A DNA stretch of 7,250 bases from Bacillota bacterium. Its GTDB lineage: Bacteria; Bacillota_E; Symbiobacteriia; JAMDAP01. The notes beneath the pieces are model-generated. The model made no database searches. It saw nothing but the letters and a program-made list of their open reading frames with translations, and was not told where the DNA came from. Where the stretch lies: assembly GCA_023484675.1 (NCBI GenBank), contig JAMDAP010000089.1, forward strand, positions 5,738-12,987, given 5' to 3'. The translations under genes and the position numbers were made by a program. How positions within the stretch are numbered: position 1 is the stretch's first letter; every line of letters starts with the position of its first letter. Positions 2,674-6,971 of this stretch are shown here, one piece after another.

Positions 2674-4047
2674 TCATTCGCCGCTCTTGCGTTTCGCCTC
2701 CAGGCGCTGGGCGATACCCTGCTCCGCCCCCTCCTCCGTGGGGCGGTAGAAGCGCCGGCCGATCAACTCGTCCGGCAGGTACTGCTGCGTCACGAAGTGG
2801 CCGGGAGCAACATCGGAGCGGCGAAGTCGTGGGCGTATTTGTAGCCCTTGCCATGGCCGAACTGGGCGGCCCCCTTGTAGCTGGCGTCCCGCAGGTGGAC
2901 CGGCACGCCCTGGATGGCCGTCTTTTCTACCTCAACCAGGGCCTCGTCAATGCCCAGATAGGCGGCGTTGCTCTTGGGCGCCGCGGCCACGTAGACCGCC
3001 GCCTCCGCCAGCGGGATGCGCCCCTCCGGCAGCCCCAGCCGCTCCACCGCCTGCATGGCGGCCGTCGCCACCACCAGGGCCTGGGGCTCGGCCAGCCCCA
3101 CGTCCTCGGCGGCGCAGATGACGATGCGCCGAGCGATGAACAGCGGGTCCTCACCGCCATAAATCATGCGGGCCAGCCAGTAGAGAGCGGCGTCCGGGTC
3201 GGAGCCGCGCATGCTCTTGATGAAGGCGGAGATGGTGTCGTAGTGGTTGTCCCCACCCTTGTCATAGCGAATGGCCCGCTTTTGGATCGACTCCTCAGCC
3301 GCCGCCAGCGTGATTTGCCGCCGTCCGTCGGACCCCGGCCGCGTTGTGTTCACGGCCAACTCCAGGGCGTTTAGAGCGGAGCGGGCGTCGCCTCCCGCCA
3401 CCCGGATCAGATGGGTCAGGGCTTCCGGGTCCACGGTCACCGCCATGCCGCCCAGGCCCCGCTCCCGATCGGTCAGGGCGCGCCGCAGCAGAGCGGCCAC
3501 GTCGTCGTCGGCAAGGGGCTCCAGCCGGAAGATGCGGGACCGCGACACCAGAGCCGGGTTGACCTCGAAATACGGATTCTCCGTGGTGGCGCCGATCAGG
3601 GTGACCAGCCCCTCCTCCACGAAGGGCAGGAGGGCGTCCTGCTGCGCCTTGCTCCAGCGGTGGATCTCGTCCACGAAGAGGATGGTCCCCTTGCCGTACA
3701 TACCCTGCCGCTGCTTGGCCTCGTCGATCAGACGGCGGATGTCGGCTACGCCGGAACTGACGGCGTTGAGTTGCTCGAACTGCCGCTTGGTGGTGTTGGC
3801 GATGACCTTAGCCAGGGTGGTCTTGCCTGTCCCGGGGGGGGCCGTAGAGCAAGACCGAGCCAAGCTGGTCCGCCTCAATGGCCCGGCGCAGCAGCCGCCC
3901 CGGCCCGATGATCCCCTGCTGCCCCACGATCTCATCCAAGGTGCGCGGCCGCAGGCGCGCCGCCAGAGGGCTCTCCCGCTTGCCGGCCTGCTCGCGCGCG
4001 TAGTCAAAGAGGTCCAAAATGCCTCCACCTCCGTTCTGCCGTTTCAT
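2674..4047 (-). pseudogene. rarA: Replication-associated recombination protein RarA (MgsA/YrvN), disrupted by two frameshifts
   Basis: RarA is a clamp-loader-like AAA+ ATPase acting at stalled replication forks. The full path starts at ATG 4047 (MKRQNGGGGILDLFDYAR) and ends at TGA 2674-2676 (RLEAKRKSGE). Without the two lesions it would encode 451 aa, a normal length. Visible parts are LAARLRPRTLDEIVGQ, Walker A GPPGTGKTT (about 69-77), Walker B FVDEIHRW, sensor 1 GATTENPYFEVN, and the C-terminal QQYLPDELIGRRFY block. Lesion 1 is a C8 run at 3834-3841, where seven C would keep the P-loop in frame; translation from the natural start ends near 3808. Lesion 2 is a 17-bp insertion at about 2806-2822 that interrupts the expected HDFPGHF; the middle frame stops at 2790. 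The two add 18 bp, so start and stop remain in one frame while the middle is shifted. It starts 8 nt after the aldolase stop. These may be real lesions or assembly errors. Confidence 0.9.
2799..2822. repeat. Right copy of the 24-bp inverted repeat, containing the 17-bp rarA insertion
   Basis: The exact reverse complement of 2082-2105. In the rarA reading direction the 17 bases 2822-2806 are extra, and the remaining 7 bases (CCCGGCC, 2805-2799) fit the native codons for F-P-G-H. The repeat therefore consists of a 17-bp insert plus 7 bp of pre-existing microhomology, the typical footprint of an inverted template switch. Confidence 0.85.
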
Positions 4048-4055
4048 GCTAAGCC

Positions 4056-5096
4056 CTAGCCGTGGAGCAGCCGCCGCAGTACCTTGAGGGTCTCCTCCAC
4101 ATCAGCGGTGGAGACGTCCTTGTGAGTCACCAGGCGGATGCGCGTGGGACCGGTGGCGTTGGCCTTTATCCCTTCCTCCCCCATCAGCCGCGCCAGGCCC
4201 GGAGCGTCCAGCTCGGGCTTTGTTACTTCAAAGGAGACCATATTCGTCTGAACTGTCTCCAGATCGACGCCAAGGCCCGGAATCTGAGCGATCCCCTCGC
4301 CCAGCCGGCGGGCATTGGCGTGGTCCTCCGCCAGGCGGTCGACCATGTTGGTGAGGGAGACCAGACCGGCTGCCGCCAACACGCCCACCTGGCGCATGCC
4401 GCCGCCCAGCAGCTTGCGGTTCTTGCGCGCCCGGGCGATCCACTCGCGGGTGCCTGCCACCAGTGAACCCACCGGCGCCGCCAGCCCCTTGGACAGGCAG
4501 AACATGACCGAATCGGCCGGCCGGGCCACCTGACTGGCCGGTACGCCGAGGGCCAGGGCGGCGTTAAAGATGCGGGCGCCGTCCAGGTGCACCCTGGCCC
4601 CATGGCGGTGGGCCACCTCCGCCACCGCCTCCATGTTGGCCAGGGGCACCACGGTCCCGCCGGCTCGGTTGTGGGTGTTTTCCAGGCAGACCAGGGACGT
4701 GCGCGGAAAGTGGATGTTGCGCTCGTCGCGGATGGCGGCCTCCACGCCGGCCGGGTCCATGGCCCCGCGATGTCCCGGAACGGTGCGGGCCTGCACGCCC
4801 GACAGGGCAGCCATCCCGCCCACCTCATAATAGAAAATGTGGGACTCGGCCTCCAGCACGACCTCCTCGCCACGCCGGGTGTGGGTGAGCACCGACACCT
4901 GGTTGCCCATCGTGCCGGTGGGCACGAACAGGGCGGCTTCCTTGCCGGCCATCTCCGCCCCCAGTTCTTCCAGCCGCTGGACGGTGGGATCCTCGCCGTA
5001 GACGTCGTCGCCAACCTCGGCCTCGGCCATGGCCCGGCGCATGGCGTCGGTGGGCACGGTTACCGTATCGCTGCGCAAGTCGATGATGCGGTTCAA
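4056..5096 (-). CDS. ltaE: Low-specificity L-threonine aldolase
   Basis: This PLP enzyme cleaves L-threonine or L-allo-threonine to glycine and acetaldehyde in the cytoplasm. The protein is 346 aa, typical for the family. It begins [19 protein letters not shown] and shows [30 protein letters not shown] (His86), [20 protein letters not shown] (Asp172), the PLP lysine Lys203 in [18 protein letters not shown], and the C-terminal RLVTHKDVS. The frame stays open far upstream through the leader RNA, but family similarity starts only here. I chose the TTG at 5096 because AGGAGA lies 6 nt upstream and no ATG or GTG is available near the conserved N-terminus. It is preceded by a riboswitch and three hairpins and followed 8 nt later by rarA. 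Glycine production next to glycyl-tRNA synthetase may be meaningful. The exact substrate (threonine, allo-threonine or phenylserine) cannot be read from sequence. Confidence 0.94.
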
Positions 5097-5185: not shown

Positions 5186-5219
5186 AAAAAAGAAAACCTG
5201 CACCCGGAGTTGTGGCAGG
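5186..5219 (-). terminator. Intrinsic terminator in the aldolase leader
   Basis: On the minus strand CCTG-C-CAC pairs with GTG-CAGG (7 bp with one bulged C, 8-nt loop), and the stem runs directly into TTTTCTTTTTT. This is the best U-tract of the three hairpins between the riboswitch and the aldolase and is the likeliest termination point of the expression platform. Confidence 0.65.
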
Positions 5220-5234
5220 GGCGTTCACGCACTC

Positions 5235-5277
5235 GCAAAGACCAAAGCCCGCTCCGGAGTGGGTACCAGAGCGGGCT
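5235..5277 (-). terminator. Strong hairpin just after the riboswitch aptamer
   Basis: On the minus strand AGCCCGCTCTGG pairs with CCGGAGCGGGCT: 12 bp including one G-U, with an 8-nt loop (5258-5265). It is followed by a moderate T-rich stretch, TTTGGTCTTT. The stem begins 19 nt after the aptamer, where a riboswitch expression platform is expected. It could act as a terminator or as one side of a switching structure. Confidence 0.6.
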
Positions 5278-5295
5278 CGCAGCGGCGGTAGTGAG

Positions 5296-5393
5296 CGACG
5301 TTCCGGTAACCCAGCCATCTTGGCTTCCCTTGCGAGAAGCTGTAGACCCGAAGTTTTGCGCCCCTCCCCTTTCGGGAAGGATAGCCTTTGTCG
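5296..5393 (-). promoter_or_regulatory. GEMM-I (c-di-GMP-I class) riboswitch aptamer
   Basis: On the minus strand the ~98-nt element has the layout of the Vc2-type GEMM-I aptamer. A short P1 joins CGAC (5390-5393) and GTCG (5296-5299). P2 begins GGC, has a 3x3 internal loop, a 7-bp arm CCTTCCC/GGGGAGG and a GAAA tetraloop. The stem closes GGCGCAAAAC, equivalent to GGGACGCAAAGCC, with the conserved A after the GC pair. P3 carries GGGTCTA, a GCTTCTC/GGGAAGC arm with a GCAA loop, and AAGATGGC opposite, resembling the tetraloop receptor. It ends GGCTGGGTTACCGG, close to the consensus 3' segment GCCGGGUUACCG. By hand alignment the position equivalent to Vc2 G20 is G, which favours c-di-GMP over cGAMP. 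The internal loop is TAT/GGC rather than AAA/GAC. It probably controls the threonine aldolase through the downstream hairpins. The class is confident by eye; the ligand and the regulatory sign are inferred. Confidence 0.82.
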
Positions 5394-5411
5394 AGACGTG
5401 ATATGGAATTG

Positions 5412-5433
5412 GCTGCCTGGCTTGCCAGGCAGC
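5412..5433. repeat. Perfect 10-2-10 palindrome at the predicted leader start
   Basis: GCTGCCTGGC and GCCAGGCAGC are perfect complementary arms around a 2-bp centre. It begins about 3 bp downstream of the candidate -10 and so covers the predicted transcription start. There is no T-run on either side, so a terminator is unlikely. It could be an operator for a dimeric regulator or a 5'-end hairpin stabilising the leader RNA. Confidence 0.6.
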
Positions 5434-5436
5434 ATC

Positions 5437-5465
5437 ACATTACCACAGACGTTGACAGGTGTTTG
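5437..5465 (-). promoter_or_regulatory. Candidate promoter for the riboswitch-aldolase transcript
   Basis: On the minus strand TGGTAATGT gives an extended -10 (TAATGT at 5437-5442). At 17 bp the -35 would be CAAACA (5460-5465), a poor match. A weak -35 with a good extended -10 and activator sites in the -35 region fits an activator-dependent promoter. Predicted start near 5430. Inferred from sequence only. Confidence 0.45.
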
Positions 5466-5480
5466 TCGAACTTTGTCGAA
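5464..5480 (+). promoter_or_regulatory. Tandem Spo0A boxes
   Basis: Two perfect copies of the 0A heptamer TGTCGAA lie at 5464-5470 and 5474-5480, 3 bp apart (10-bp period), both within TTTGTCGAA. Tandem 0A boxes with this spacing occur at known Spo0A targets such as the abrB promoter. Relative to the predicted start at 5430 they cover about -35 to -50. A third, imperfect copy (TGTCGAG, 5389-5395) falls at the start of the aptamer and may be chance. No spo0A gene is in the window, so binding is inferred. Confidence 0.6.
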
Positions 5481-5511
5481 GCAGCCAGGGAAAAATATCT
5501 GCCGACGGGGC

Positions 5512-5531
5512 GGCGGGACGCGCTTCCCGCC
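5512..5531 (-). terminator. Hairpin downstream of glyQS, possible weak terminator
   Basis: GGCGGGA and TCCCGCC are perfect 7-bp arms around a 6-nt loop, about 55 nt after the glyQS stop. The nearest T-run (ATTTTT, minus strand, about 5491-5497) is 15 or more nt beyond the stem, so this is not a classical intrinsic terminator. It may protect the 3' end. Confidence 0.35.
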
Positions 5532-5532
5532 T

Positions 5533-5582
5533 GGACTGGTCCGGACTGGTCCGGACTGGCCCGGACTGGCCCGGACTGGCCC
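5533..5582. repeat. Five tandem 10-bp repeats after glyQS
   Basis: Five units of GGACTGGYCC run head to tail without gaps: the first two have T at the variable position and the last three have C. Each T-type unit is an imperfect palindrome (GGAC-TG-GTCC). The array ends 3 bp before the glyQS stop codon position, in its 3' untranslated region. Ten base pairs is close to one helical turn. It could be a slippage-prone microsatellite or a structured RNA tail. Confidence 0.95.
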
Positions 5583-5585
5583 GCG

Positions 5586-6971
5586 TTAGAAGGCCAGCCG
5601 CTCCTCCAGGTAGACCTTGAGATCGCCGATGGGCAGGCGCACCTGCTGCATGCTATCGCGCTCTCGCACCGTTACCTGGCCGTCCTCCGCCGACTGGAAG
5701 TCGTAGGTCACGCAAAATGGTGTGCCGACCTCGTCTTGGCGGCGGTATCGCTTGCCAATGGAGCCGGTCTCGTCGTAATCGGCCATGACGTAGCGGGACA
5801 GCTCGGCCCAGATGGCCTGGGCCCCCTCCGCCAGCTTCTTCGACAGCGGCAGCACCGCCACCTTGATCGGCGCCAGGGCCGGGTGCAGGTGCAGGACGGT
5901 ACGCGAGTCGTTATCCGGCAAAGCCTGCTCCTCGTAGGCGTCCAGCAGGAGGGCCAGAGTGACGCGGTCGGCGCCCAGAGAGGGCTCGATGCAGTAGGGC
6001 AGGTAGCGCTCGTTGGTTTCGGGGTCAAGGTAGGAAAGGTCCTCGCCCGAGTGCTGCTGGTGCTGCTTGAGGTCGTAGTCGGTGCGATCGGCAATGCCCC
6101 ACAGCTCGCCCCACCCGAAGGGGAACAGGTACTCGATGTCGGTGGTGGCGGCGCTGTAGTGGGACAGCTCTTTCTTCTCGTGGTCACGCAGCCGCAGGTG
6201 GTCCGGCGTCATCCCCAGCGAGAGCAGCCAGTTGTGACTGAACTCGCGCCAGTACTCAAACCACTTGAGGTCCTCGCCCGGCTTGCAGAAGAACTCCAGC
6301 TCCATCTGCTCGAACTCGCGGGTGCGGAAGGTGAAGTTGCCTGGCGTGATTTCGTTGCGGAAGCTCTTGCCGATCTGGCCAATGCCGAAGGGCAGCTTTT
6401 TGCGCATCGCCCGTTGGATGTTCTTGAAGTTGACAAAGATGCCCTGCGCCGTCTCCGGCCGCAGGTAGATCTGGTTGGCAGAACTCTCAGTGACACCCTG
6501 GAAGGTGCGGAACATCAGGTTGAACTGCCGCACCTCGGTAAAGTCATGGGCGCCGCAGTCCGGGCAGGCCACCTGGTGCTGCGCCAGCAGCTCGCCGAGG
6601 CGGGTGAGGCCAAGCCCGTCCGTCCGCTGCTCCAGGCCCTTCTGTGCCAGGGCATCCTCCAGCAGCTTGTCGGCACGGAAACGCCCCTTGCACTTCTTGC
6701 AGTCGACCATGGGGTCATTGAAGCTGCCCACATGGCCCGACGCCACCCAGGTCTGCGGGTTCATCAGGATAGCAGCGTCCAAGCCCACGTTGTGGGGCGA
6801 CTCCTGGATGAACTTCTTCCACCAGGCGCGCTTGACGTTGTTCTTCAACTCCACCCCGAGGGGGCCGTAGTCCCAAGTGTTGGCCAGGCCGCCGTAGATC
6901 TCCGAGCCGGGGAAGATAATGCCCCGCTGCTTGGCTACGGACACCAGTTGCTCCATCGTCACGCTGCTCAT
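5586..6971 (-). CDS. glyQS: Glycyl-tRNA synthetase, single-chain homodimeric type
   Basis: This class II synthetase charges tRNA-Gly with glycine using ATP. The protein is 461 aa, like the single-chain bacterial enzymes (for example in Staphylococcus) and unlike the alpha2-beta2 GlyQ/GlyS type. Features in order: [22 protein letters not shown] (about 23-44); two cysteine pairs, CKKC (91-94) and CPDC (136-139), that could bind zinc; [14 protein letters not shown] (169-182); motif 2 FRNE (204-207) followed by [25 protein letters not shown]; motif 3 around [10 protein letters not shown] (333-342); and a C-terminal anticodon-binding domain from about 367 to the end (VYLEERLAF). The ATG at 6971 is chosen for the AAGGAG 9 nt upstream and the usual N-terminus. 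A T-box core and terminator lie 43-109 nt upstream, so expression probably rises when uncharged tRNA-Gly accumulates. Very secure. Confidence 0.98.

Follow-up and report, generated by a model that had tools for sequence, protein, structure and literature searches.

A putative leader of the threonine aldolase gene ltaE with tandem Spo0A boxes and a c-di-GMP-I aptamer, shared by two bacterial species

We analysed a DNA stretch of 7250 bases (the window), whose named genes all lie on the minus strand, and propose that positions 5480-5186 (-) are the complete leader of ltaE, in which a promoter bearing tandem Spo0A boxes is followed by a c-di-GMP-I (GEMM-I) aptamer and a dual-hairpin expression platform that would work as an OFF switch in the manner of Cd1 of C. 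difficile. We put the probability of this reading at roughly 0.6. Computed directly are the canonical nature of the aptamer and the conservation of boxes, aptamer and platform in a second species (genome G017). c-di-GMP is a bacterial lifestyle signal and, if the proposal holds, the leader would connect c-di-GMP and the control of sporulation directly, through RNA, with glycine metabolism: a second-messenger riboswitch directly tying threonine-to-glycine metabolism to the decision between sessile growth and sporulation.

A cmscan search at the gathering threshold returns c-di-GMP-I (RF01051) as the sole match in the window, at 5396-5302 on the minus strand, with a score of 57.3 bits (cut-off 35) and an E-value of 1.6e-9. 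The match spans all 87 model positions, and no non-standard pair is marked. The first-pass annotation of this DNA, made from the letters alone, had placed a GEMM-I element on the minus strand at 5296-5393 and had named a covariance search for RF01051 as its check; the significant score bears out the assignment, with the earlier span off by 3-6 nt. All the features by which the element had been recognised, a GAAA-capped P2, GGCGCAAAAC, GGGTCTA and AAGATGGCTGGGTTACCGG, are found in the aptamer. Taken alone, its folding energy is unremarkable (z -2.0; 9 of 200 shuffles equal it).

In Vc2 numbering, we take the contacts G20, A47 and C92 to correspond to the G at 5385, the middle A of CAAA at 5356 and the C at 5306, respectively. 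These equivalents are found in the ltaE aptamers of both the window and G017, the latter scoring 58.3 bits with RF01051 against the cut-off of 35. When 32 chosen aptamers are aligned, the column of window position 12 is nearly invariant and the columns of positions 41 and 91 are invariant. MAFFT put the 5' ends of some rows of this alignment (A3) out of register, which left model R1 with no more than 21 pairs; with R1 the window and G017 copies are still recovered, at 72-73 bits, both of them members of its training set.

G11 of Cd1 is equivalent to G20 of Vc2 and is described as the selectivity position (PMC9262584), and G20A is reported to go with cGAMP (PMC6274999). Because the equivalent is G in the ltaE leader, cGAMP is unlikely as its ligand. 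Rare GEMM-I variants are reported to sense cGAMP or another dinucleotide (PMC7266159), and in G017 one of the 12 class-I aptamers, which is not that of ltaE, carries A as its G20 equivalent, opposite a T in the partner position, so that there is some precedent for a ligand other than c-di-GMP. For the ltaE aptamer we consider this extremely improbable: the selectivity position is G in this aptamer, in 11 of the 12 aptamers of G017 and in all 15 of G039, a genome of the same taxonomic order, and the junction of the ltaE aptamer reads GCAAA, the canonical form, where RF03167 has GCGAA. A cGAMP-sensing GEMM-I variant, which needs A at the G20 position, was accordingly rejected for the leaders of both species, which have G. 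We also rejected c-di-GMP-I-GGC (RF03167), for which the G017 copy scores 50.2 bits, below the cut-off of 59, and whose consensus junction is GCGAA versus GCAAA in both ltaE copies; RF03167 was kept for the G017 copy in one scan, and RF01051 is the clan match kept in the window. The exceptional G017 aptamer (L161, G017:C41:6271-6358, 43.7 bits) precedes DUF5317 and MASE9 genes and is a candidate cGAMP-type switch; given its A and partner T, the lineage may hold such a switch elsewhere.

The ltaE gene occupies 4056-5096 (-), with a TTG start at 5096 and a GGAG ribosome-binding site at 5107-5104. Its product (P0001) matches the NCBIfam model of GntG-family PLP aldolases with 482.5 (cut-off 230) and that of low-specificity L-threonine aldolases with 322.2, barely above the cut-off of 312; the best relatives of solved structure are L-allo-threonine aldolases. 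The best named relative comes from a Symbiobacteriia MAG (83%), and among 151 genomes of the class the best match is that of G017 (84.5% identical). In G017 the next gene after ltaE, encoding an SDH-type protease, is convergent, and ltaE is thus the only plausible target of the leader in that genome. This arrangement supports the earlier claim that the aptamer acts on ltaE, and judging from the sequences of both species ltaE is very probably controlled by c-di-GMP. A small gene missed by annotation was considered as target and rejected, since no conserved ORF was seen between aptamer and ltaE in an alignment that contains a 1-nt gap and large unaligned stretches. An antisense riboswitch was likewise rejected, every nameable gene of the window being on the same strand. 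Close behind ltaE in the window stands a split rarA/mgsA-type ATPase gene (2790-4047 (-); Pfam MgsA_C and AAA), which may share its transcript. This gene is spread over reading frames, with one frame break near a G run at ~3834-3842 and another, seen by eye, near the 3' end; both are likely sequencing indels.

G017 has 12 class-I aptamers, of which one, 95 nt long, lies directly upstream of ltaE. Over the whole leader (5481-5208), the window and G017 are identical at 245 of 274 positions, summed over the 0A boxes (5461-5481; 19/21), 5440-5460 (15/21), 5397-5439 (37/43), the aptamer (89/95), the linker (21/23), hairpin T1 (33/34) and 5208-5244 (31/37). Segment 5180-5207, which includes part of hairpin T2 and its U tract, retains 20 of 28 positions, and the flanks agree at 14/104 positions ahead of the boxes and 15/75 past T2. 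The corresponding identity at four-fold sites is 111/191 (58%) in ltaE and 119/198 in glyS. At the four-fold rate and with sites taken as independent, the chance of such conservation is 5e-15 for the aptamer, 2e-7 for T1 and 3e-30 for 5481-5208. Since the aptamer is 94% and T1 97% identical compared with 58% at four-fold sites, we conclude that the leader is under selection. Six aptamer positions differ between the two species; three are unpaired, and the three that fall in pairs all keep the pairing.

The gene order in G017 is 6S RNA (L244:324-528), thioredoxin, a T-box-like element, glyS, aptamer and ltaE. In G039, which belongs to the same taxonomic order, a class-II tRNA synthetase gene (aspS by eye) is followed by 6S RNA, thioredoxin and ltaE, with neither glyS nor an aptamer between the last two. 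Most simply, glyS and the leader would have come to lie between thioredoxin and ltaE in the lineage of the window and G017; from the lack of both in G039, glyS and aptamer either entered in that lineage or were lost in G039. This history also raises the possibility that the aptamer arrived as part of the glyS segment and has lost its control over ltaE. Such a vestigial leader would have a parallel in Bc1 of the B. cereus group, which is reported to bind c-di-GMP without a response of its genes in the native setting (PMC11218506), but the identities of 94% and 97% against 58% at four-fold sites argue against it, and we judge it very improbable. Bc1 is described as a class-I leader with a dual terminator whose parts are 28 bp apart (PMC11218506); the ltaE leader is alike in having two terminator hairpins after a class-I aptamer, ~25 nt apart, in a comparison of layout that leaves sequences and genes aside. 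By this analogy, Bc1 is a fair warning as to the function that may be ascribed to the ltaE leader.

Two tandem perfect Spo0A boxes (TTTGTCGAA) occupy 5462-5480 (+), at 5462-5470 and 5472-5480, 10 bp or one turn apart, with the proximal one lying over the presumed -35 position of the minus-strand leader. They fall outside the span given in the first-pass annotation, so that the leader is larger than that annotation had it. The published 0A core, TGTCGAA (PMC3485338), is thus found twice at promoter position, as in a Spo0A-type promoter. With up to one mismatch allowed, there are 4 boxes in the window, compared with a shuffle mean of 0.63 (3 of 200 shuffles reach 4), and the only exact ones are the leader pair; a third near-match, at 5387-5395 inside the 5' end of the aptamer, was left out of the count. 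The G017 leader keeps one box intact, and its second departs from the perfect box at a single base. Allowing one mismatch at most, the box-pair pattern TYGACAAANTTCGACAAA has a single occurrence in G017, in the ltaE leader, and none in G039; a reversed control pattern gives 0 matches. Spo0A itself and 8 GGDEF domains are encoded in G017.

Directly reading the minus strand, we find a -10-like element, TAATGT with TGG ahead, at 5437-5442, and TGTGGTAAnGTG is conserved in G017; transcription would then start near 5430. A sigma-70 promoter scan of the window called no promoter, so that the -10-like element is weak evidence and the boxes are the stronger. A hairpin at 5412-5433 (-) would form the 5' end of the leader RNA (-18.1 kcal/mol for 5410-5440, z -3.2), and folding produces a matching hairpin in the G017 leader. 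The position of the boxes suggests that Spo0A~P activates the promoter; repression by Spo0A is also possible. The first-pass annotation had guessed at a link with sporulation, and in this respect the two boxes at promoter position and the Spo0A gene of G017 lend it support. Literature on Spo0A together with riboswitches and c-di-GMP mostly concerns C. difficile, and according to one report no riboswitch of that species appears to act on sporulation genes, under conditions that did not favour sporulation (PMC8653836).

The leader is adjoined upstream, in both species, by glyS, the gene of glycyl-tRNA synthetase (5586-6971 (-); NF003211, 683.3 bits), whose product is identical at 407 of 459 residues between the window and G017. 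The two genes are co-directional neighbours, and the aptamer could therefore belong to an internal attenuator that receives transcripts mainly from a T-box-controlled glyS promoter and only uncouples ltaE from glyS, in which case one signal would serve both the glycine maker and the glycine user. A T-box-like element is indeed found in the glyS leader (23.8 bits in the window, 43.4 in G017), but both matches are under the Rfam cut-off of 93, and the conserved block begins at the 0A boxes and the -10-like element, with the DNA between glyS and the boxes identical at only 14 of 104 positions. We therefore regard the attenuator as improbable and retain a promoter of ltaE's own. The T-box-like element of the window lies at 7174-7030 (-). 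By eye, its G017 counterpart has ~90 nt extra in the middle; the antiterminator/terminator part of the window copy looks intact, and the element is perhaps a shortened T-box. Directly past glyS, at 5529-5583, the window has a tandem 10-bp repeat (GGACTGGTCC/GGACTGGCCC) that is not seen in G017.

Between aptamer and ltaE, the next gene on the same strand, we find the terminator-like hairpins that the first-pass annotation had noticed. T1 (5245-5278 (-)) has a folding energy of -26.1 kcal/mol (z -6.3) and is listed as terminator-like by the scan, with a poor U tract in both species (UGGUCUUUG in the window, AUGUCUUUG in G017). T2, a second terminator-like element at 5219-5197 (-) with the U tract TTTTCTTTTTT reaching to 5186, is not listed by the terminator scan and has -7.6 kcal/mol in the window versus -15.1 kcal/mol in G017. 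Given the poor U tract of T1 and the weakness of T2 in the window, transcription need not stop at these hairpins. The aptamer is thus situated in a 5' leader, followed by an expression platform and a same-strand gene, and this layout is conserved in G017.

We folded growing transcripts of both species, with lengths counted from 5438 or the G017 equivalent. In the predicted antiterminator, the aptamer 3' strand GGGTTACCGGA (5302-5312 (-)), including the C92 equivalent, pairs with the switching strand TCTGGTACCC (5270-5261 (-)), which forms the upper 5' arm and loop of T1. At a length of 180 nt, GGGUUACCGGA of the aptamer 3' strand is paired with UCUGGUACCC of T1 (UCCGGUACCC in G017), and at 180 and 186 nt the C92 equivalent pairs with G173 in both species (P 0.99-1.00, and 1.00 in both at 180 nt); at 192 nt T1 takes over in both (P 0.99-1.00). 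The pairing of aptamer 3' strand and T1 is matched by 28 of 1000 dinucleotide shuffles for the window and 5 of 1000 for G017. In the predicted folds T1 is compatible with the aptamer, and the antiterminator excludes both. Ligand and tertiary contacts do not enter the energies of ViennaRNA, by which the Rfam aptamer fold is 4-12 kcal/mol less stable than the best fold at the tested lengths. T1, once formed, is favoured at equilibrium, so that the switch could only be a kinetic one. A Cd1-type layout, in which an antiterminator captures the ligand-pairing C, is predicted in both species, by folding without ligand and with a poor T1 U tract.

According to the proposed mechanism, Spo0A~P would activate the leader promoter. 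At low c-di-GMP, the upper 5' arm and loop of T1 would capture the aptamer 3' strand with its ligand-pairing C, and this antiterminator would delay T1 and let RNA polymerase read on into ltaE. With c-di-GMP bound, the 3' strand would stay in the aptamer, T1 (backed by T2) would form and transcription would stop. Cleavage of threonine to glycine and acetaldehyde by LtaE would then be confined to conditions of high Spo0A~P and low c-di-GMP. An OFF switch by this Cd1-like route is what the folding model leads us to favour, while the two-input gate on glycine supply, with ltaE transcribed only if Spo0A~P is high and c-di-GMP low, is a tentative reading to which we give somewhat less than even odds.

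The ltaE leader resembles Cd1, which we take to stand before the flgB flagellar operon, in its class-I aptamer, in a predicted antiterminator that takes the 3' strand of the pocket, in the predicted coexistence of aptamer and terminator and in the OFF logic that would follow. It differs in its target, an amino-acid enzyme and not flagella, in having two hairpins and in the Spo0A boxes at its promoter. Cd1 is described as an OFF switch in which aptamer and terminator coexist and an antiterminator that is only transiently stable unfolds the pocket (PMC9262584).

The same riboswitch and target could also work with the opposite sign, c-di-GMP turning ltaE on. The T1 tail (5226-5243 (-)) can pair with the aptamer 5' strand (5401-5384), which contains the G20 equivalent, in a conserved 17-pair helix of -22.0 kcal/mol in the window and -20.7 kcal/mol in G017, equalled by 2 and 0 of 1000 mononucleotide shuffles, respectively. 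The simple OFF model does not explain this helix, which in the folding predictions leaves room for an ON switch: the bound aptamer would keep its 5' strand off the T1 tail and thereby alter the output of T1 and T2 or ribosome access. The poor U tract of T1 in both species would fit such a switch, and so would the pilM riboswitch of Geobacter metallireducens, a close relative of the ltaE aptamer that is reported to be an ON switch with mutually exclusive terminator and aptamer (PMC9262584). However, the 17-pair helix shares no bases with the arms of T1 or T2, and T1 and aptamer are predicted to coexist as in Cd1 and not to exclude each other as in pilM, which shares the GEMM-I architecture by homology and differs in its cGAMP ligand, its ON sign and its exclusive terminator. 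The confirmed class-I switches of C. difficile are, moreover, reported to be OFF (PMC9495176). An ON switch is thus unlikely, and the Cd1-like OFF switch remains our preferred reading.

To see how widely ltaE carries the aptamer, we scanned ltaE loci of the class, represented by 151 genomes drawn evenly from a larger group (147 LtaE rows), and a wider set. No upstream aptamer was found at the 89 rows scanned (L122-L150, 29 rows; L184-L243, 60 rows) of the 146 outside G017, the best score in the upstream stretches of L184-L243 being 13 bits (E 0.46). The class rows left out are mostly below ~57% identity, and some lie at contig edges (G051, G125, G058, G009 and G007). At the split ltaE of G039 (L245) the best score is 10.3 bits (E 0.035), with no RF01051 match up to E 1. 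The 80 wider loci (L001-L080) have no aptamer directly upstream of ltaE; their only strong match, a class-I aptamer of 72 bits in Pontibacillus marinus (L015:11194-11283 (-)), is ~4 kb from ltaE on the other strand and is not an ltaE leader, and a match of 16 bits at L075 lies inside its gene. Three genes occur in both sets (L001/L132, L003/L143 and L004/L195). Upstream DNA is short at L064 (86 nt), L026 (186), L131 (194), L029 (204) and L004 (327), and the whole upstream stretch is short at L215 (98 nt) and L195 (354). A wider association of ltaE and aptamer was thus not found beyond the window and G017 in the loci scanned. The earlier expectation of a core conserved in orthologous leaders holds for G017 and fails at the other LtaE loci checked, which are without an upstream aptamer; the shared leader is known in two species, and the pairing of aptamer and ltaE is narrow.

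Class-I aptamers as such are common, with 133 of the 151 class genomes above the cut-off. As their targets in G017 and G039 we list long ORFs that start no more than 900 nt after the aptamer, which are not proven first genes. The 11 non-ltaE aptamers of G017 precede genes for TadE, RHS repeats (two), an HD domain with TPR, a subtilase, DUF5317 followed by MASE9, and sigma-70 region 2; two further targets have no Pfam match and two are lost at contig ends. For the 10 aptamers examined among the 15 of G039, the targets are Flp pilin, SLH, DUF6531, CAP, alpha/beta hydrolase, HD with TPR, FliD (two), RHS and GGDEF; the last of these aptamers, L179, scores 31.3 bits, under the cut-off. c-di-GMP-I riboswitches are regarded as controlling motility, surface and signalling genes, a view that most nameable neighbours in the two genomes fit (pilus, RHS, S-layer, subtilase, HD, GGDEF and FliD). 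The same RNA family occurs in G003 of the same class (L081, 85.9 bits) and differs there in its ordinary motility target, the downstream genes being flgB, flgC and fliE by eye. Among the named targets in G017 and G039, ltaE is the only amino-acid enzyme. In G039, one class-I aptamer (L168, G039:C46:6645-6721) is followed by a CAP-domain gene and then a phosphofructokinase gene, and with the latter standing behind the CAP gene, another metabolic gene may share such a transcript. Also in G039, tandem class-I aptamers, 75 nt apart, stand before the alpha/beta hydrolase gene (L172 and L174, G039:C5:6286-6528).

We found no paper that joins a c-di-GMP riboswitch and threonine aldolase in a literature search whose scope excluded most subscription journals and the original GEMM gene list. 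Among papers naming both threonine aldolase and c-di-GMP, no title links the two, and the main text of the C. difficile c-di-GMP regulon study (PMC6200980) contains none of the words 'threonine', 'glycine' and 'aldolase'. The ltaE leader thus represents a known riboswitch class with an unusual target, free of an earlier report in the literature searched, in a narrow lineage.

Further minus-strand genes of the window are a thioredoxin-like one, of which the 3' end is present (read by eye), and, from Pfam matches, an Rrf2-type regulator, a class-V aminotransferase (a cysteine desulfurase by eye) and an mnmA-type gene. A 6S RNA stands upstream of ltaE at 12 of the 30 class loci L121-L150 (L123-L125, L128, L132-L134, L136, L137, L139, L148 and L149) and also at L004, L245 and L001, the last being the same gene as L132.
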